Of a DNA stretch of 64,000 nucleotides, positions 746-9,645 are shown piece by piece. How positions within the stretch are numbered: the first letter of the stretch is position 1; every line of letters begins with the position of its first letter. Source of the DNA: Phycisphaeraceae bacterium (GTDB lineage: Bacteria; Planctomycetota; Phycisphaerae; Phycisphaerales; Phycisphaeraceae); the NCBI GenBank assembly GCA_002716625.1, contig PBAS01000032.1:20282-84281 (forward strand), in the 5' to 3' direction. Position numbers and translations under genes: made by a program. The notes beneath the pieces are model-generated. The model saw only the letters and a program-made list of their open reading frames with translations. It had not been told where the DNA came from and did not search any database.

Positions 746-829
746 GCGGGCGTGGCGGAATTGGCAGACGCGCTAGATTTAGGTTCTAGTGGGGTAACAC
801 CCGTGGAGGTTCGAGTCCTCTCGCCCGCA
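746..829 (+). tRNA. tRNA-Leu (anticodon UAG)
   Basis: An 84-base cloverleaf with a seven-pair acceptor stem (GCGGGCG with CGCCCGC), discriminator A, anticodon stem CTAGA/TCTAG around loop TTTAGGT giving anticodon UAG, a long class II variable arm, and the T-arm GGTTCGAGTCC. No CCA is encoded. Its 3' part is duplicated 3.2 kb downstream, so this gene is the likely attachment site of an integrated element. Confidence 0.96.
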
Positions 830-831
830 TT
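775..831 (+). repeat. Left attachment-site copy (attL-like), 57-bp direct repeat
   Basis: Positions 775-831, running from the anticodon stem of tRNA-Leu to two bases past its 3' end, recur at 3944-4000 with a single mismatch (C798 versus T3967). Repeats of a tRNA 3' half are the usual product of site-specific integration by a tyrosine recombinase. The intact tRNA is kept on this side. Confidence 0.8.
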
Positions 832-894
832 CGGTTGTAAGCATTGCACTTGCAACATTTGCCATTGATTGGCTTCAGGTCTTATTTTCGGTCT

Positions 895-904
895 GTATCC
901 CCAG
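895..904 (+). repeat. GTATCCCCAG, left copy of a 10-mer found near both element ends
   Basis: The same 10-mer occurs twice more at 3821-3830 and 3832-3841, all in the same orientation and all just inside the tRNA-derived repeats. This arrangement resembles integrase arm-type binding sites, which is inference. Confidence 0.45.
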
Positions 905-914
905 GCGAGTCAAA

Positions 915-1165
915 TTAGTCTGTATTAGATAGGTGTTCGAGGGCGCGTTGCGCGGCATTCTTGTATTCATCCTGGGCCACGTCTTCGATCACAGCGTCCT
1001 CGAACTTGGCCATGTATTCTCGCCGGCTTACATCTGGACTATGCCCAATTGCTCGCGTGTACTGGTACTCGCTCAGGCCAAACTTGAGGAAGTCCCGCTC
1101 ACAACAGCAACGAAGTACCTGGAAACCAGGGCGCCACAAAGACCGCCCGTTTGCTGTTCTTCATA
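915..1165 (-). pseudogene. Tyrosine recombinase (phage-type integrase) C-terminal remnant
   Basis: The open frame runs from just after an in-frame TGA near 1166 to a TAA at 915-917, about 82 residues without a clear start. It matches the C-terminal catalytic core of tyrosine recombinases: 'FQVLRCCCERDF' at the Arg box (family form resembles LRRSCE), 'RAIGHSPDVS' at the GHS box, and 'RREYM' with the nucleophilic Tyr about ten residues after the His, followed by an amphipathic tail. The N-terminal DNA-binding half, about 300 residues in relatives, is missing. It sits next to the tRNA-Leu repeat, where an integrase gene is expected, and is probably no longer functional. Confidence 0.68.
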
Positions 1166-1177
1166 TCTATAGGTCAA

Positions 1178-2452
1178 ATGGTCACCGTCGTGAACAGATC
1201 TCATGCAATAACAGTACTTGTCACGATCCTGACAACCTTCTCGGCAGGATCGGTAGCGCGACCTGATCCGGCGGCCAAGACATTGACAATGCTCAATCCT
1301 TACGATGGCGTCGACTGGAAGTCCGTGATCAAGGTCCCGTCGGCAACGCACCTGCATATGAAAGAACAAAGTGCTCTGGACCATGGCTACCGCAGTGGTT
1401 TAAGGCACTTCCCGATTTCAAACTACTATCCTTCAGCACCCTACAGCGCCACCACTCGGCTCAGTGACTTCAAGCTGCACCAGACCTGGCCCGTCAAGCG
1501 CAACGGCGTCACGATTGAGCCGCCCATCAACTGGAACAAGCTCATCACCTGGCGGGACGAGCTCAAAGAACCGTTTCGATCAAGTCTTCCCTTCACCGAA
1601 ACCGAACTGGTCTTTCCTCATATTCCAGACGACGTGATTTTGAGCAACAATGCCGAGCACCACGGCTTTACCAACGGCAATCCAAGATGCCACATCTGCG
1701 CGCCTGGCTCCTCGTTTTCCTCGGGCACCTTCGATGTGAAGGGTCGCAATTATCGTCTGCCCGAACACGGGATCCCGATCGGTTTTGGCGGTACATGGCA
1801 GCAGGCTTTTACTGAGATGCTCAAGTTGCTCGACTATCCAGACGGCGGGGGAATCATCATCGCTCATCCTGCATGGCTCTCAGGTCTGTCGGACCAGCAG
1901 ATCTTCGAGATGCTTGATTTCGACCAGCGGGTGTTGGGGATTGAGATCTACAATCACGGTGAGCAAATTAGGGATTGGACGAAGAAGCCGGCCGACGAGC
2001 TACCGCCAGAACCTGAACCCGGCTTCGCCCTCAAGCTGTGGGACCGCATCTTGTCGACGGGCCGCCGGTGCTGGGGATTCTGCGTGCCAGATCACGGCGT
2101 TGAAAAAGGTGGCGATTGGCAGGGCCGTAGCGTCTTGCTCGTTTCCCGTTTTTCGGAAAGGCATTGCCTGCGGGCCTATCGCAACGGTAACTTCTACGGG
2201 TGCCTGAAGGATAACGGTCTGACGGTCACAGATTTCCAAGCCACCAAAACTGAGGTCAAGCTACAGACCAATCAGACCGCCAAGATCACGTTCATCACGA
2301 ACAAGGGGATTGCGAAAAGCGTCACGGGCACAAGTGCAACTTATGCCATCCCGACGAACGACGGTAAACCTGACGTGGTCTATGTCCGGGTGGAGATATC
2401 AGACGAATCTGGCGAACGCCTGTTCCTGCAGCCGGTCATGTATCACCATTAA
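1178..2452 (+). CDS. Secreted PHP-domain-like protein (degenerate metal phosphoesterase fold)
   Basis: A 424-residue protein. ATG 1178 is preferred over TTG 1151 because it starts a typical signal peptide (residues 1-27, hydrophobic core 'AITVLVTILTTFSAG'). 'THLHMKEQ' near residue 67 resembles the first metal motif of PHP phosphoesterases, 'IIAHPAWLSG' a middle His motif, and 'WGFCVPDHG' with 'GRSVLLVSRFSERHCLRAYRNG' order the C-terminal part as in secreted PHP proteins. The first motif lacks the usual second His spacing, so activity is uncertain. A Ser/Thr-rich beta tail follows. It is convergent with the dockerin gene at 2460-3623, seven bases apart, and both lie inside the tRNA-Leu repeats. 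Confidence 0.6.
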   Translation: MVTVVNRSHAITVLVTILTTFSAGSVARPDPAAKTLTMLNPYDGVDWKSVIKVPSATHLHMKEQSALDHGYRSGLRHFPISNYYPSAPYSATTRLSDFKLHQTWPVKRNGVTIEPPINWNKLITWRDELKEPFRSSLPFTETELVFPHIPDDVILSNNAEHHGFTNGNPRCHICAPGSSFSSGTFDVKGRNYRLPEHGIPIGFGGTWQQAFTEMLKLLDYPDGGGIIIAHPAWLSGLSDQQIFEMLDFDQRVLGIEIYNHGEQIRDWTKKPADELPPEPEPGFALKLWDRILSTGRRCWGFCVPDHGVEKGGDWQGRSVLLVSRFSERHCLRAYRNGNFYGCLKDNGLTVTDFQATKTEVKLQTNQTAKITFITNKGIAKSVTGTSATYAIPTNDGKPDVVYVRVEISDESGERLFLQPVMYHH

Positions 2453-2459
2453 TCTCACC

Positions 2460-3623
2460 TCAACGGCGGCGGACAAGACACACCAGCCCAACGGCCAAGA
2501 CCGCCACGGTCGCTGGCTCAGGAATCAGTGGACTGAAGCCGGCCGAGCGCAACGCCTGAGACAAGGACAACCCTTCCGCCGCGGACCAGTTGGCACCCAG
2601 GATGCCCAGGTCCGCGACGTCGACGACGTTGTCACCGTTGAAATCGCCGTCGTCGAACACCACGTCAGTCATGCCGAAGTTTGCGCCCAGAATGCCGAGG
2701 TCTGCCACATCCACCACACCGTCGCCGTTGGCGTCACCGGGTATGGGTAAAACATTTTCCGCCCGCACGCCCACGAGAACGTTGTCGAAGAGCACGTTCT
2801 CGAATGTGGTCCCGCCGCCGGCCAGTTGGATGAAATCAAGGTCGTAATGGCCGTTGTACGATTCGAAGTCTGCAATCAGTTTTGTGTCATCGAGCCATAG
2901 GTCCAGACGCTGGTTCGACGCCTTATAGTGAAGCGTAATCGAACCCTGGCTGAGCTGTCCGGGGATGATAAACTCCTGGCTAGGGCCATTCGAGCCTTCC
3001 GGTGCCGGTCCGTAGCGGACTTTGTAACGATTGGGCTCGCCATTAAAGAATGAACCCGTCGTGCGGGGCGAATTCGATGCTCGCTTGTCGCTGGCACCAG
3101 TAATCGTCAGCATATCGCCGCCGGTTTGGCTTATGGGTTCAATAAGCTTATCACCGCCAAACGTGTCGCCGGGAGCGGTGTCGACCGTGAAGTCGACCGA
3201 AAACACCCAATCAATGTCCGTCCTCATCGGGTGCCCCTGGTTCGCAATAGCGTCTGGCGCGGGTGTGTCCTTAAACGTCGTCGTGTAGCGCATCGCCCCA
3301 CAAAGATCCTTACCTTCTCCCAAGCAGGCGGCGCCGGCCTGGGAAAAGGGTGATGCGGTCAAGAAGTAGCCGTCATCACTCCAACCATTATCTCCGTAAT
3401 CAACGGGCAAGAAATCCCAATTCTCACACTCATTCAAGTAGCCCAGCGTGGGGTGCCGCGGACCATCCTGAACGCAGCCGTCCTCGATGGTGTCGGGGTC
3501 TCCAGTATAGGGCACATGGAGCCCCGGCTCATTGGGGTCGAGAGCCGGCACCGGCGGAGCGGCAAACACGATAATCTCACTGCTAAATACCAGAACTGAC
3601 AGGAGAATGATCTGACGGTGCAC
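2460..3623 (-). CDS. Secreted dockerin-like / PEP-CTERM protein
   Basis: A 387-residue protein starting with GTG 3623 (AGGG lies ten bases upstream). Residues 1-21 form a signal peptide. The middle, about residues 30-290, resembles a beta-sandwich of concanavalin type ('FENVLFDNVLVG' near its end) and has several Cys. Two calcium-loop repeats follow, 'GDANGDGVVDVADLGILG' and 'GDFNGDNVVDVADLGILG', as in type I dockerin modules. The tail 'IPEPATVAVLAVGLVCLVRRR' region is a PEP-CTERM signal: PEP motif, membrane helix, Arg cluster. Such proteins are exported and processed by an exosortase, which is not in this window. Ligand unknown. Confidence 0.8.
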   Translation of the reverse strand: MHRQIILLSVLVFSSEIIVFAAPPVPALDPNEPGLHVPYTGDPDTIEDGCVQDGPRHPTLGYLNECENWDFLPVDYGDNGWSDDGYFLTASPFSQAGAACLGEGKDLCGAMRYTTTFKDTPAPDAIANQGHPMRTDIDWVFSVDFTVDTAPGDTFGGDKLIEPISQTGGDMLTITGASDKRASNSPRTTGSFFNGEPNRYKVRYGPAPEGSNGPSQEFIIPGQLSQGSITLHYKASNQRLDLWLDDTKLIADFESYNGHYDLDFIQLAGGGTTFENVLFDNVLVGVRAENVLPIPGDANGDGVVDVADLGILGANFGMTDVVFDDGDFNGDNVVDVADLGILGANWSAAEGLSLSQALRSAGFSPLIPEPATVAVLAVGLVCLVRRR

Positions 3624-3943
3624 GCGGGTTTATCCCTGAGAAGATCTGCTCCATCTCCATCGATCTGTTTAGGCAAAGGACAAAGCACATTATACAGGAT
3701 ACAGGCCTCATCTCTATACGACCCTGCCGAAATACAGTCAAAGATTAATAGGTGGGATGGTGGGCTTGGATCTCGGGCGTCGAAAGGGGTGCGGGGTGGG
3801 GGCTGTTGCGGGACAAAGTTGTATCCCCAGCGTATCCCCAGAAAGTCCGATCGTCGCCAGAACGTCACCCGAGCCTCACCCTACTCACACCGCTTCGCTG
3901 CATTGGAACCGCGTTTGGGCGCAACGAGGCGACACATGAGACA
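3624..3943. other. Gene-free right end of the element
   Basis: No convincing coding frame. It holds the start-side leader of the dockerin gene, a G-rich stretch near 3770-3810, and the tandem 10-mers at 3821-3841 just before the tRNA-derived repeat. Confidence 0.6.
3821..3841 (+). repeat. Tandem GTATCCCCAG pair at the right element end
   Basis: Two copies of the 10-mer at 3821-3830 and 3832-3841, one base apart, matching the copy at 895-904. They lie about 100 bases inside the right repeat. Candidate integrase arm sites. Confidence 0.45.
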
Positions 3944-4000
3944 AGATTTAGGTTCTAGTGGGGTAATACCCGTGGAGGTTCGAGTCCTCTCGCCCGCATT
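3944..4000 (+). repeat. Right attachment-site copy (attR-like): 3' fragment of tRNA-Leu
   Basis: 56 of 57 positions match 775-831. The fragment starts inside the anticodon stem and cannot form a full tRNA, because the acceptor 5' strand and D-arm are absent. It marks the far junction of the inserted segment. Confidence 0.8.
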
Positions 4001-4006
4001 GAAATT

Positions 4007-5169
4007 TCAGGGTTGCATGTTCGTGCAGGCCCTTTGAGGGCGAAAGCCCAGGCAAGTCACCATGAGTGTTAAGACCGCAGACGTTGCTGGTTCAGGAACC
4101 AGTACCACAGCTTGGCTACGTGTTTGCGCCGCAGTCCAGTTGGCGCCCACGATACCAAGGTCAGCAACATCAACATTTCCGTCGCCATTGAAATCGCCAC
4201 GCGAAACTATGGCATTGGTTTGGCCAAAATTGGCGCCGACAATTCCCAAATCTCCCACATCGATTAGGCCACCGCCATTGGCATCACCCGGTAATGAGGA
4301 ACCGCCGATATTGAGGGTTAGTTTGGGGCGATGGTCAATATTTGCATGTTCACTGGAGCGGTAGGCCGCTCCATGATTGGGGCCGTCCGGACCGGGAAGA
4401 ATCGGATTGATCGGGTCATGTATGACATTCAACAGTACGCCATAACCAGTCAGGGCGTCTAGAATTGATGTCACATCAATATTAATCAAGCCCTCTTCGA
4501 CCGGTTGGGTATAGGTGATCGAGGCGCTTTCATCATGGTCCACACCATCAGCCGGTCCACAGATATCAATCAGCGCATACATGTTGCCAGTTGCTGGGCA
4601 GCCTTGAGCCCAATCCTTTTTGCCTCGTCGACGTTCCTTGCGGTCACTTCGCCAATGGATGCCAATCCATCTGATGTGCCAAAGTTGATAGACCGAAGCA
4701 GTGGAGAAATTCGGATCTGTCCGCCACTAACTATCGGATCCTTAGTCGTCGCTCTGTTATCTGGATTTCCTGTCGATGCAACGATCGACCCGAGGTCCTC
4801 CTGGTTATAAAGAGTAAGCGTCGCTTGTGTAACCGGTGTATCTGGAGCGATCTGGCCTGCTGCTGTGCCATACACGCGGGCAAAACGTAAAAGCATTTTC
4901 CCATACCGAAATATAGGCCCTGGTTTATCATTGAAGCCAACTTGATTTTGGTAGAAGTGGCCTACCTCCAAGACCGCTGAGGATCCGCCATTGGTTGACC
5001 AGTGTTCATACGAACCGCGATCGGCAATGGGTTGTTCCAAGGCGACGCGGATCACCGAATCCCGTCCACGCTCGTAACCATTGGCACCATGTTGGAATAT
5101 GGCGATTTCACCGATGGCCGGTGCGCCGAGCATAATGCTCACCATCATTATGAACTTGATCTTGGGCAT
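4007..5169 (-). pseudogene. Frameshifted DNRLRE-like / dockerin / PEP-CTERM protein
   Basis: Two frames, 4570-5169 (N-terminal half with signal peptide) and 4007-4582 (C-terminal half), together match the intact paralogue at 6065-7363 along its length: 'FQHGANGYERGRDSVIR' versus 'FQQGVDGYERAQDTSIR', 'TSDGLA' versus 'TNDGLA', then the two calcium loops and a 'PEPATSAVLTL' sorting tail. The switch falls at a run of five T on the plus strand (4617-4621). A sixth A on the coding strand would restore one frame reading ...AKKDWAQGC..., which aligns with the paralogue. The first loop also carries Gly for Asp ('GDANGGGLIDV'). Either a real lesion or a base-call error. Confidence 0.75.
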
Positions 5170-5549: not shown

Positions 5550-6074
5550 ATGAATGATTTGACAAATAATAACCCCTTGGATGTGACGGACTTCCTGCAC
5601 GCAAGCCTTACGGCCAGTTGCCTCGAGCAGTCCCTGGCGTTCTATCGCGACATTCTCAACATGGAAGTTGTTTCCGTTAGATCACAAGGTGATGTTTGTA
5701 CTATTCGTGAAGAGCGTGGAACGTACGTGGCAGGTGTTACTGGTTATAAGGACGCGCATTTGAAGATTGCGATATTGCGTTATGGAGCATTCCATCTCGA
5801 ACTGATCGAGTATGTATCTCCCCGGGGCGAGCCGCTCGGTTCCGGAACGAACCGTCCAGGTTGTCCACATTTGGCATTCGTGGTATCAGATCTGGATCAT
5901 GCGTGGCGGGTTCTACAGCAAGGCCGTTACCGTTGGAACTTGAGTTTTGCCAGTAGTGGGCCGGTTAACGTTGACAGCGGACCGAATGCCGGTGGGCGTG
6001 TAATTTATTTTCGCGGTCCTGACGAGGTTACCATCGAACTGGTCGAGTTAAATAATCAAGGTACTCATAGGTAA
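5550..6074 (+). CDS. VOC-superfamily protein (glyoxalase/dioxygenase fold)
   Basis: A 174-residue protein from ATG 5550. An upstream GTG at 5496 would add 18 residues that do not look like the family. 'FLHASLTASCLEQSLAFYRDILNM' is the typical first beta-alpha unit with the metal His, 'LELIEYVSP' the central strand, 'CPHLAFVVSDLD' the second His, and 'VTIELVEL' the final metal Glu. VOC proteins bind a divalent metal and act in isomerisation, epimerisation or ring cleavage. It resembles the second VOC gene at 17400-17867. Substrate unknown. Confidence 0.82.
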   Translation: MNDLTNNNPLDVTDFLHASLTASCLEQSLAFYRDILNMEVVSVRSQGDVCTIREERGTYVAGVTGYKDAHLKIAILRYGAFHLELIEYVSPRGEPLGSGTNRPGCPHLAFVVSDLDHAWRVLQQGRYRWNLSFASSGPVNVDSGPNAGGRVIYFRGPDEVTIELVELNNQGTHR

Positions 6075-7363
6075 AACTCGAAAGTTGATTCGCTACAAGT
6101 TCGACGTCGACGTCCAAACCACATTAATCCAAGGGTCAGGACTGTAGTCGTGGCCGGTTCGGGAATCAGTGAGGCTGCGGCGGCCCCTGCCTGCGCGGTC
6201 GTCCAATTGGCGCCAACAACGCCAAGGTCTGCCACGTCGACATTTCCATCTCCGGTGAAGTCGCCATCTACAGGTGTTGCGTTGGTGCTACCAAAGTTGG
6301 CGCCGACAATGCCTAAATCCCCCACATCCACCACGCCATCACCATTAGCATCGCCTGGCGTCGATGCGTCTCCAGTATCGATTACCAGCATGGGCCGAGT
6401 AGTGAAATCTTCTGCAGTACTACCCAATTCGCCGGACCGATAAGCCTGCCCATAGTTGATATCAAGCGTGGGAAGTTCATCGCCTGGACTTAATCCCGTC
6501 ACAAAGACCCCGTTGCCTGTCAGGGAATCGAGTAGTCCTGTTACATCAAAGACCTTGAACCCTTCGGTTGCACCCTGTGCAACTTCAATTGCACCAGGAT
6601 GTGACGAATCATATTCCTCGGTACCTGGGGTAGCGTGCGGATCACCCACATCGGACGGTCCACAATTGAATGCTGCTGCTATGGGGTCATTGGGGGCATG
6701 GGCTGCCGAGCAGTCCTGGGACCAGTTTCCCTTTCCCCGTCGCTTTTGTTCAGCGGTCACAACCCCCTTGTTGGCAAGTCCGTCGTTCGTTCCCCAGCGT
6801 GGGGACACCAGCATTGGATAAAGGCCAATCGTGCCCGCATTAAGTTTGGGCGTTGTCTCTATTTCTGGAGTGAATTCGCCGTCCGGTGTACTCTTGGCGC
6901 GTTCGGGACCAAGATCATTATCGTTATACAGGTGCAATTTGGCTGAGGTAACCGGGACATCGGGTGGCACCTGTCCTACGGCAGTTCCAAAGACATCCCG
7001 AAAGCGAATGAAAAAGCGTGCATAACGGATTACGGGTCCTGCTTCGATACTGGATGGGCCCATTTTTACTGCTCCCGTGAGTTTCTGGAAAAACTGGCCG
7101 GCTTCCAATATGTCTGTGCCCCCACCATTGGTTGACTGCATTTCGTAGGCACTCATGTCGCCCTGGTGTGGGTTGTCGACGTCCGCCGTGTCGCCGAAGT
7201 TGACGGTATAGGCCCATCGAATTGAGGTGTCCTGGGCACGCTCATAACCATCGACACCCTGCTGAAAAATAAAAAGGTCAGCAATGGCTGGCCCGGTTAA
7301 CGATAGTACTACTATGCATGGCACGGTGAGAGAAAACACTTTTGAACCACAGTGAAATATCAT
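6065..7363 (-). CDS. Secreted DNRLRE-like / dockerin / PEP-CTERM protein
   Basis: A 432-residue protein. ATG 7363 is chosen because AGGGAG lies six bases upstream; a TTG two codons earlier would overlap that site. Signal peptide at residues 1-28, then 'FIFQQGVDGYERAQDTSIR', a start typical of DNRLRE-type carbohydrate-binding domains, 'FDVTGLLDSLTGNG' near residue 285, two calcium loops ('GDANGDGVVDVGDLGIVG', 'GDFTGDGNVDVADLGVVG') and 'IPEPATTTVLTLGLMWFG' with an Arg cluster. Intact paralogue of 4007-5169. It overlaps the convergent VOC gene by ten bases. Confidence 0.82.
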   Translation of the reverse strand: MIFHCGSKVFSLTVPCIVVLSLTGPAIADLFIFQQGVDGYERAQDTSIRWAYTVNFGDTADVDNPHQGDMSAYEMQSTNGGGTDILEAGQFFQKLTGAVKMGPSSIEAGPVIRYARFFIRFRDVFGTAVGQVPPDVPVTSAKLHLYNDNDLGPERAKSTPDGEFTPEIETTPKLNAGTIGLYPMLVSPRWGTNDGLANKGVVTAEQKRRGKGNWSQDCSAAHAPNDPIAAAFNCGPSDVGDPHATPGTEEYDSSHPGAIEVAQGATEGFKVFDVTGLLDSLTGNGVFVTGLSPGDELPTLDINYGQAYRSGELGSTAEDFTTRPMLVIDTGDASTPGDANGDGVVDVGDLGIVGANFGSTNATPVDGDFTGDGNVDVADLGVVGANWTTAQAGAAAASLIPEPATTTVLTLGLMWFGRRRRTCSESTFEFYL

Positions 7364-7516
7364 CGCCAACTCCCTGTGATATGGTCTGTGCGAACGAATG
7401 AATCGGAAACTGCGTTGTCCAAGATGTAGTCTCTCCCATCCTAAATAACGATTGAATTATAAGAGGGGGGGGGTAGAAGATTTATTCTGAGTTGTTTTTG
7501 CCATGTGATAAATTCA

Positions 7517-8268: not shown

Positions 8269-9645
8269 GTGTCAAACAAAATGACTGGTTACTTGTCCGG
8301 ATTAAGCCTTCCCCGGCAGGTATTGGCACTTGCGATCTGGCCTTTTATTGAGCAAATGATGGCCGTTTTCGTTGGGACTGTCGATATGGTGGTCGCCGGT
8401 CATCTGTCCCCCGAGTCCCTTGCGGTTGCCGCGGTCGATGCGCTGGGTGTAACCAGCTATATCACGTGGCTGATGGCCTTGGTCTTTTCTGCTGTGGGTG
8501 TAGGCGCCGCCGCGTTGATCGCCAGGGCTGTAGGTGGTGGTCATAAAGGATTGGCCCATGCCTCGCTTGGTCAGGCCATGTTGATGGCAGTGGTATGTGG
8601 CTTGTTGGTCGGGGTGGGCACATACATCCTGGCCCAACCCATTGGTCAGGTTTCAGGGCTTGGCGGCGCGGGCCTACATTGGTCAACTGTCTATTTACGT
8701 ATCGTCAGCTTTGCGTTCCTTCCGAGTGCTTTGCTGATTATTGGGAACGCTGCACTCCGTGCAGCAGGAGATACCCGTACGCCTTGTGCGGTGATGGCTA
8801 CTGTTAATATTGCCAATGTGATCTTCAGTTTGCTCTTTGTGTATGGGCCCAGGCCTATTGGCGGTCATGGTGTAGCGGGTATCGCGGCTGGGACCCTATG
8901 CGCATGGGTCATCGGCTCCGTGGTTACCATCACGGTTCTCATTTGCGGATGGGGGGGCTTGCGGCTTTATATTCACCGGCTTCGTCTTCACCTACACACC
9001 GCACGGCGTATTGTGCGTGTGGCAGTTCCCAATATGTATGAGTCTATATGCGGTATGTGGCTAGGGAATTTCCTGATTCTCATGATAGTTGGTCGGTTGG
9101 TGGGCGATGCCACATTGGGCGCTCACATGATTGCTCTGCGAATCGAGTCGGTTTCGTTTCTCGGTGGATTGGCGTTGGGAATGGCCGCCGCAACTCTCAC
9201 AGGACAGTATCTGGGGATGGGTGAGGTTAAAGGTGCCCGATCGGCGGCGGTGATATCAACATGGTTTGCCGCCGCGTACATGGGGATTTGGGGGATAGCC
9301 TATTTGGCTGTGCCCACGCAAATGGTTCGATTAGTAACCAACGCCGAACCACTGATTCGTCAAGCACCTGAAATTCTTCGAATTTATGGTCCCATACAGA
9401 TCTTTTTGGCCATCATGATCGTGTTATCCCACTCGCTGAGAGGTGCTGGGGATACGCGGGCTTCTATGTGGATTACCATTCTGTCCATCTTCTCGATCCG
9501 TGTGCCCGGTTGTTATCTCCTAGGGGTGACATTGGATTTGGGACTCCCCGGTATCTGGCTTGCCATGTGTGGTGAAATGACGTTGCGATCACTGGTGTTC
9601 ATTTGGCGATTTCGTCAAGGCCGCTGGGAGAAGGTTGTGGTATAG
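8269..9645 (+). CDS. MATE family multidrug/cation antiporter
   Basis: A 458-residue protein. GTG 8269 is chosen because GAGG lies six bases upstream; ATG 8281 would be 18 bases from it. MATE proteins export cationic drugs in exchange for Na+ or H+ across the inner membrane. About twelve hydrophobic segments are visible in two related halves, with the family repeats 'ALRAAGDTRTPCAV' (near residue 165) and 'SLRGAGDTRASMWI' (near residue 395) and 'WPFIEQMM' at the first helix. It stands alone between a dead amidase gene and the convergent EF-G-like gene. Confidence 0.92.
   Translation: MSNKMTGYLSGLSLPRQVLALAIWPFIEQMMAVFVGTVDMVVAGHLSPESLAVAAVDALGVTSYITWLMALVFSAVGVGAAALIARAVGGGHKGLAHASLGQAMLMAVVCGLLVGVGTYILAQPIGQVSGLGGAGLHWSTVYLRIVSFAFLPSALLIIGNAALRAAGDTRTPCAVMATVNIANVIFSLLFVYGPRPIGGHGVAGIAAGTLCAWVIGSVVTITVLICGWGGLRLYIHRLRLHLHTARRIVRVAVPNMYESICGMWLGNFLILMIVGRLVGDATLGAHMIALRIESVSFLGGLALGMAAATLTGQYLGMGEVKGARSAAVISTWFAAAYMGIWGIAYLAVPTQMVRLVTNAEPLIRQAPEILRIYGPIQIFLAIMIVLSHSLRGAGDTRASMWITILSIFSIRVPGCYLLGVTLDLGLPGIWLAMCGEMTLRSLVFIWRFRQGRWEKVVV

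Follow-up and report, generated by a model that had tools for sequence, protein, structure and literature searches.

Tycheposons are tRNA-bounded elements that carry cargo and encode their own recombinase; the island described here, which lies at positions 832–3943 of a 64,000-nucleotide stretch (the window) of contig PBAS01000032.1 from a Phycisphaeraceae bacterium, is without a recombinase of its own. By the features tested, all of them read from sequence, it is best viewed as a decayed tRNA-site island of the kind represented by cis-mobilizable elements (CIMEs), as these are defined in PMC5704250. Compared with that text, the island resembles a CIME in that its integration gene has been lost (here by truncation) while both att sites are kept, in that neither of its two cargo proteins matched a transfer family in Pfam or NCBIfam, and in that it would be the decay product of an integrative element. 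The likeness is incomplete, since cis-mobilization by a neighbouring element is part of what makes a CIME whereas the island is known only as a sequence, and since the element from which it derives may have been satellite-like, with a primase, as opposed to conjugative: an element in genome G218, which is the nearest relative to be intact and seen at both ends, carries a primase. Islands described in the Islander work on tDNA islands (PMC4383910) are similarly delimited by a regenerated tRNA gene and a displaced 3' fragment downstream on the same strand, with an attachment site centred on the anticodon, but the island considered here has no intact integrase gene and would be filtered out by that approach.

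The window contains an intact tRNA-Leu(UAG) gene at 746–829 on the forward strand (ARAGORN; Rfam RF00005, 54.5 bits). An earlier note on this DNA had claimed that the 3' half of the gene recurs about 3 kb downstream, and this was confirmed: the left att-type repeat, which starts at the anticodon stem and loop and reaches two bases beyond the 3' end of the tRNA (775–831, +), and the right att-type repeat, a displaced 3' half of tRNA-Leu (3944–4000, +), form a 57-bp direct repeat with one mismatch (98.2% identity). Since relatives vary at the mismatched position, the difference could not be polarised. A 24-nucleotide piece of the repeat was found without mismatch only at these two places in the source genome (a 3.35-Mb draft of 83 contigs, 88% complete), and with one mismatch it gave two matches, the 3' ends of tRNA-Leu(CAG) and tRNA-Leu(GAG). 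Among the 51 genomes of the family, the source genome included, the tRNA-Leu(UAG) 3'-half pattern was present in 35, in 34 of them as one copy, and the restriction of a second copy to the source genome argues for integration at this tRNA. Across the class the pattern was present in 235 of 397 genomes, seven of which had two copies among the matches listed; only in the source genome and in G180 were the two seen on one strand of one contig, the matches being on different contigs in G319 and G340 and one per strand, at positions outside the listing, in G159, G174 and G224. A reversed pattern, employed as a control, matched 5 of the 397 class genomes, and the pair counts for this pattern and for the tRNA-Gly pattern described below are lower bounds, such that more pairs may exist.

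Just inside the left repeat, on the reverse strand at 915–1160, lies the C-terminal remnant of an integrase, comprising an open reading frame (ORF) of 74 residues at 915–1139 within a frame that stays open to approximately 1160, with detectable homology ending at 1148 and stop codons upstream of the open frame. The assignment of this tail to the catalytic end of a tyrosine recombinase, made in the earlier note from the letters alone, was borne out by comparison with full-length relatives. Against the 532-residue integrase of G218 (locus L120) the tail is 44% identical over 43 residues (E 4e-11), the match beginning at residue 466 of 532, so that only roughly the last eighth of the protein is left; the closest relative is an 86-residue fragment in G023 (L012), with 60% identity over 63 residues. 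The tail was also matched, among the island frames, by a hidden Markov model (HMM) of seven related integrases, two of which are represented by partial sequences (8e-13), and an Arg, a Gly-His pair and a Tyr, the catalytic residues of the tyrosine recombinase family, were invariant across six aligned tails. Relatives of the tail comprise full-length integrases in G218, G048 and G135, a 238-residue frame in G354 and the G023 fragment; at E<=1e-5, matches were obtained in 5 of the 397 class genomes, the source genome included. The relatives adjoin either tRNA-Arg (G218, G135) or tmRNA (G048, G354), and the homology of the tail to full-length integrases in these positions supports the view that it derives from an integrase acting at tRNA genes.

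Searches with the tail alone were less productive. NCBIfam and PHROGs returned no integrase match, no match was obtained against protein-database, phage or plasmid sequences, and the tail was confirmed in 0 of 176 pattern stretches from genome contigs and 0 of 3 from viral contigs. A single weak Pfam match to penicillinase repressor (E 0.03), below the cut-off, was dismissed. The G023 fragment was observed to adjoin a gene for a large predicted secreted protein (L107:9885-14703), and just past the stop codon of the fragment begins a 102-bp direct repeat (88%) whose second copy is 4.45 kb away. The closest tRNA gene, for glycine, is more than 5 kb distant.

Further repeats occur inside the ends of the island. 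The best direct match between the terminal 250 bp of its left and right sides is TGTATCCCCAG, at 894–904 (+) on the left, which recurs on the right at 3820 and, one base shorter, at 3832, as part of a tandem pair, TGTATCCCCAGCGTATCCCCAG, with a period of 11 (3820–3841, +). In two sets of dinucleotide shuffles, 5/500 and 7/200 reached the score of this direct repeat. Within the window, TATCCCCAG is found on the forward strand only at 896, 3822 and 3833, and on the reverse strand once, at 9446 (0.41 expected). Tandem GTATCCCCAG without mismatch was present in 1 of 397 class genomes, namely the source genome, with two others having two mismatches. Three comparison elements (a tRNA-Gly island and a tRNA-Arg element in the source genome, and the G218 element) have the same direct arrangement with unrelated motifs; their direct scores were matched in 0/200, 0/200 and 1/200 shuffles, respectively, while the best inverted matches were reached by shuffles far more often (24/200, 121/200 and 47/200, respectively, and 68/200 for the Leu island). 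These end repeats are likely to represent integrase arm sites, and their presence in the Leu island and all three comparison elements favours an integrative origin, although a DnaA-box-like origin is possible for the Leu motif.

Support is also drawn from parallel islands within the same genome. The source genome has 38 tRNA matches above the Rfam cut-off, of 43 listed, and each was compared by BLAST in both orientations with up to approximately 12 kb of downstream sequence (less at the ends of contigs or stretches). A 3'-half copy longer than 16 bp was found for only two of them, tRNA-Leu(UAG) and tRNA-Gly(GCC); a third, for tRNA-Arg, lies at 13.4 kb, beyond this limit. In the case of tRNA-Gly(GCC), on contig C22 (L062:10777-15125), a 46-bp copy with 98% identity is positioned 4.28 kb downstream, and the interval contains a 224-residue integrase ORF whose match to PF00589 is confined to the end of the profile (positions 125–168 of 172), one cargo gene of 1066 codons without a Pfam match, and 27-bp end repeats identical at 25 of 27 positions, with a GC content of 63% as against 52% and 41% in the flanks. 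The copy for tRNA-Arg, on contig C63, is identical over 57 bp, and in the 13.4 kb that separate it from the tRNA gene are a full-length integrase gene and a primase/helicase-like gene. The G218 integrase is likewise at tRNA-Arg, in a 9.1-kb, primase-carrying element closed by a 3'-half repeat of its own, which counts in favour of the decayed-element interpretation. Both tRNA-Arg elements thus resemble the Leu island in having 3'-half repeats, an integrase beside the tRNA and arm-like end repeats, the G218 enzyme being in addition related to the tail, and differ from it in being larger and in having a full-length integrase and a primase-like gene. Two further short islands were found in other genomes. 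G180, of the same class, has tRNA-Leu(UAG) with a 53-bp copy (96%) 7.2 kb away (L157:6798-14102), enclosing genes for a GH10 enzyme, a BamB-like protein and two sulfatases, in which no integrase was detected with seven integrase queries. One query gave a match within a sulfatase gene (E 3e-4, 31% over 61 residues), which was rejected because the part of the tRNA-Gly ORF involved, residues 3–63, is not the integrase-like one. In G071, of the same family, a 46-bp copy of tRNA-Gly is situated 1.9 kb away and no integrase was detected in the island, the sole match covering 19 residues over the tRNA itself. Three other near-pairs for tRNA-Gly were set aside: that in G232, where the repeat is longer than a tRNA half and no tRNA was found; that on contig C88 of G072, where the 20 kb taken holds no intact tRNA; and that in G049, where two matches are 298 bp apart and no tRNA was found.

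Two other observations concern tRNA-Gly(GCC). A further 3'-half match in the source genome, at C70:18366-18395 on the reverse strand (L173), is 4 bases from the contig end and represents either a whole tRNA gene or another half copy. In the relative G031, an intact gene on contig C1 (2585443-3218234; L161–L171) is followed by ten 3'-half copies on the same strand, spaced at 37–105 kb over 633 kb. PF00589 has 27 matches in that genome, with one in each of 9 of the 10 intervals, in open frames of 470–492 residues; from its sequence, the array looks like ten integrative elements in tandem at a single tRNA gene.

Taken with the recovery of an intact tRNA-Leu by ARAGORN when 1–774 is joined directly to the sequence from 3944 onward, the parallel islands at tRNA-Gly and tRNA-Arg lend weight to the interpretation that 832–3943 is very likely a gutted integrative element of the tRNA-targeting type, from which a deletion spared the cargo. 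Integration at tRNA-Leu with subsequent loss of most of the integrase, as put forward in the earlier note, thus stands as the best reading of the 57-bp repeat and the tail. A tyrosine integrase would have brought about recombination between attP of the element and attB at the anticodon loop, whereupon the element's own 3'-half copy would have restored the tRNA gene on the left and the host's original 3' half would have been displaced to 3944–4000; the 5' part of the present tRNA-Leu(UAG) gene is accordingly likely to be the host's, and the 3' part to have been supplied by the element. A later deletion is then envisaged as having removed everything upstream of approximately residue 466 of the 532-residue integrase, bringing the first cargo gene to within ~30 bp of the break. 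The 3.1-kb interval now holds the 74-residue tail and two intact cargo genes. Since only the tail of the integrase is left, the island is likely unable to excise, and thus immobile, by itself; excision by a related integrase supplied in trans is conceivable in principle, since both att repeats and the arm-like sites remain.

The earlier note had described the cargo as two secreted-protein genes. Both genes are indeed intact, whereas secretion is a prediction only, based on inspection of the N-termini by eye and, for cargo 2, on a PEP-CTERM signal. Cargo 1 (1178–2452, +) encodes a predicted secreted protein of 424 residues, for which ATG at 1178 is the more likely start than TTG at 1151, because a database protein predicted with identical sequence has 424 residues. 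Its AlphaFold model has a predicted local distance difference test (pLDDT) score of 90, and the best PDB match is 3e38, a PHP-like metal-dependent phosphoesterase (E 8e-8), with template modelling (TM) scores of only 0.36/0.44; a sequence search of solved structures gave no match. A function as a PHP-like metal-dependent hydrolase is therefore a prediction from the model. Homologues at E<=1e-3 number 1181, and among the matches listed from the best 120 of these, which were inspected, the closest are 60–67% identical, with named homologues at ~53–60% from Planctomycetota, Lentisphaerae, Latescibacteria, Gemmatimonadetes and one Phycisphaerae bacterium. A scan of genome contigs yielded five loci with long matches at 50–58% in Lentisphaerae, Latescibacteria, Gemmatimonadetes and Phycisphaerae. 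In its own family, by comparison, cargo 1 has only partial matches of 24–34%, in 10 of 50 other genomes, and the contrast with its 60–67% relatives in public sequence supports acquisition from elsewhere. A 32% relative is also encoded by a 123-kb viral contig, IMGVR_UViG_3300021255_000040 (L111).

Cargo 2 (2460–3623, −) encodes 387 residues with dockerin-like repeats and a PEP-CTERM sorting signal, PF07589 being matched just over the cut-off (E 4e-4) and PF00404 below it. A 46% identical protein is encoded on contig C13 of the source genome (L061:8373-13859), as the first of three PEP-CTERM-type genes (identified by eye) that follow in a row a full-length tyrosine recombinase gene, itself ~200 bp from tRNA-Met; no tRNA-half repeat was found at this locus. 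The GC content at third codon positions (GC3) is 66% and 68% in the cargo genes as against 47–55% in the three neighbouring genes measured, and the island as a whole has a GC content of 55.8% compared with a mean of 51.1% (standard deviation 2.0) in 3.1-kb steps across the window, a value matched or exceeded in 7 of 244 same-sized segments, those over the island included; the raised GC and GC3 are further support for a foreign origin. Beside the right repeat, at 4007–5169, a dockerin-type gene is broken into two overlapping frames, the products of which correspond to consecutive stretches of the protein encoded at 6065–7369; it is therefore a frameshifted pseudogene or an assembly error.

Several results weigh against the decayed-element interpretation. 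No empty site was seen in a comparison of 36 frames surrounding the site with 32 tRNA-Leu loci of relatives (of 34 located, those of G069 and G070 being available at less than full length), as none of these relatives has the neighbourhood in common with the source genome: isolated matches at L126 (69%), L129 (30%) and L134 (50%) each involve one gene that lies at least 11 kb from the tRNA in the source genome. A search of the tail with PF00589, the check suggested in the earlier note, which had named the lack of an integrase match as a refutation, gave no match at E<=1, a result rendered uninformative by the full-length L120 integrase, which matches phrog_1 in PHROGs (E 2e-29) yet has no Pfam match at E<=0.01 either. 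Relatives of cargo 1 occur in other Phycisphaerae records at 50–53%, the five named-genome loci with a long cargo 1 match have no tRNA within the stretches examined, and cargo 2 has its relative elsewhere in the source genome. The G180 island shows no GC difference from its flanks and no evident arm-like repeat. Finally, the arm-like motif is short. A similar tandem was present in 37 viral stretches, many of which resemble DnaA boxes on inspection by eye; an integrase match was found in one of the 37, and within 1 kb in none. As a tracer of a helper element, the motif is therefore not diagnostic on its own.

The alternative that survives best, while judged unlikely, is that two events took place at one hotspot, with an element first decaying and the cargo entering later by homologous or illegitimate recombination. 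The abrupt end of the tail ~30 bp before cargo 1 would fit such a history. Moreover, the cargo 2 family has at least one other copy in the source genome, so that cargo 2 need not have come with the element, and it may have moved in later. However, both cargo genes share the raised GC3 relative to their neighbours, and the tRNA-Gly island has the same layout of tail followed by cargo, both of which count against two separate events.

A still less probable alternative is that the island is a working non-autonomous element, normally without an integrase and moved in trans by a related one. The persistence of paired att repeats, differing at one position, and of arm-like sites at both ends is in keeping with this, as is the absence of an intact integrase from all four short islands (<8 kb) examined. 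Two of the four retain a remnant, and an intact integrase was seen in the two longer elements (9.1 and 13.4 kb); the islands were drawn from the matches listed for a few tRNA patterns and do not amount to a census. Conversely, the truncated tail indicates that the island once had an integrase of its own, no other match to the tail was detected in the draft genome, the mismatch-free tandem arm motif is confined, among 397 class genomes, to the source genome, and the island was not seen in a second species, no search aimed at the whole island having been made. By extension, the class might harbour recurrent, integrase-poor, tRNA-bounded mini-islands (1.9–7.2 kb) that spread genes for secreted glycan-processing and surface proteins from lineage to lineage and that, having kept their att and arm sites, are moved in trans by the integrases of passing elements, although this is a speculative and rather doubtful proposition.

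Partial tRNA copies do occur in genomes, and the repeat might in theory have arisen by segmental duplication or recombination of a tRNA fragment, with the tail present by coincidence. This is very improbable: the repeat begins at the anticodon stem, ends shortly after the tRNA 3' end and lies downstream in the same orientation, which is the layout given in PMC4383910, and of the 38 tRNAs the two with a copy within ~12 kb both enclose an integrase remnant, while the third, more distant copy encloses a full integrase. A self-splitting ('suicidal') archaeal-type integrase, with N- and C-terminal halves at opposite ends of the island as outlined in PMC8371274, would account for a C-terminal piece alone beside the tRNA, but can effectively be dismissed, given that seven integrase queries detected no second integrase piece in the window at E<=0.01 and that the end of the tail, at 915, lies clear of the att repeat.

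The decayed integrative element thus remains the preferred interpretation, and as a kind it is ordinary; modest interest attaches to the graded series to which it belongs and to its kept end sites. No account of such islands in this bacterial group turned up in the literature listings consulted, and the island would escape detection by programs that depend on an integrase. Within one genome, the integrase declines from full length at tRNA-Arg, through a 224-residue ORF at tRNA-Gly, to a 74-residue tail at tRNA-Leu, in what amounts to a graded decay. The arm-like sites that have been kept make mobilisation in trans directly testable, and the island illustrates that a tRNA-targeting element can leave behind a clean two-gene insertion, the boundaries of which can still be read.

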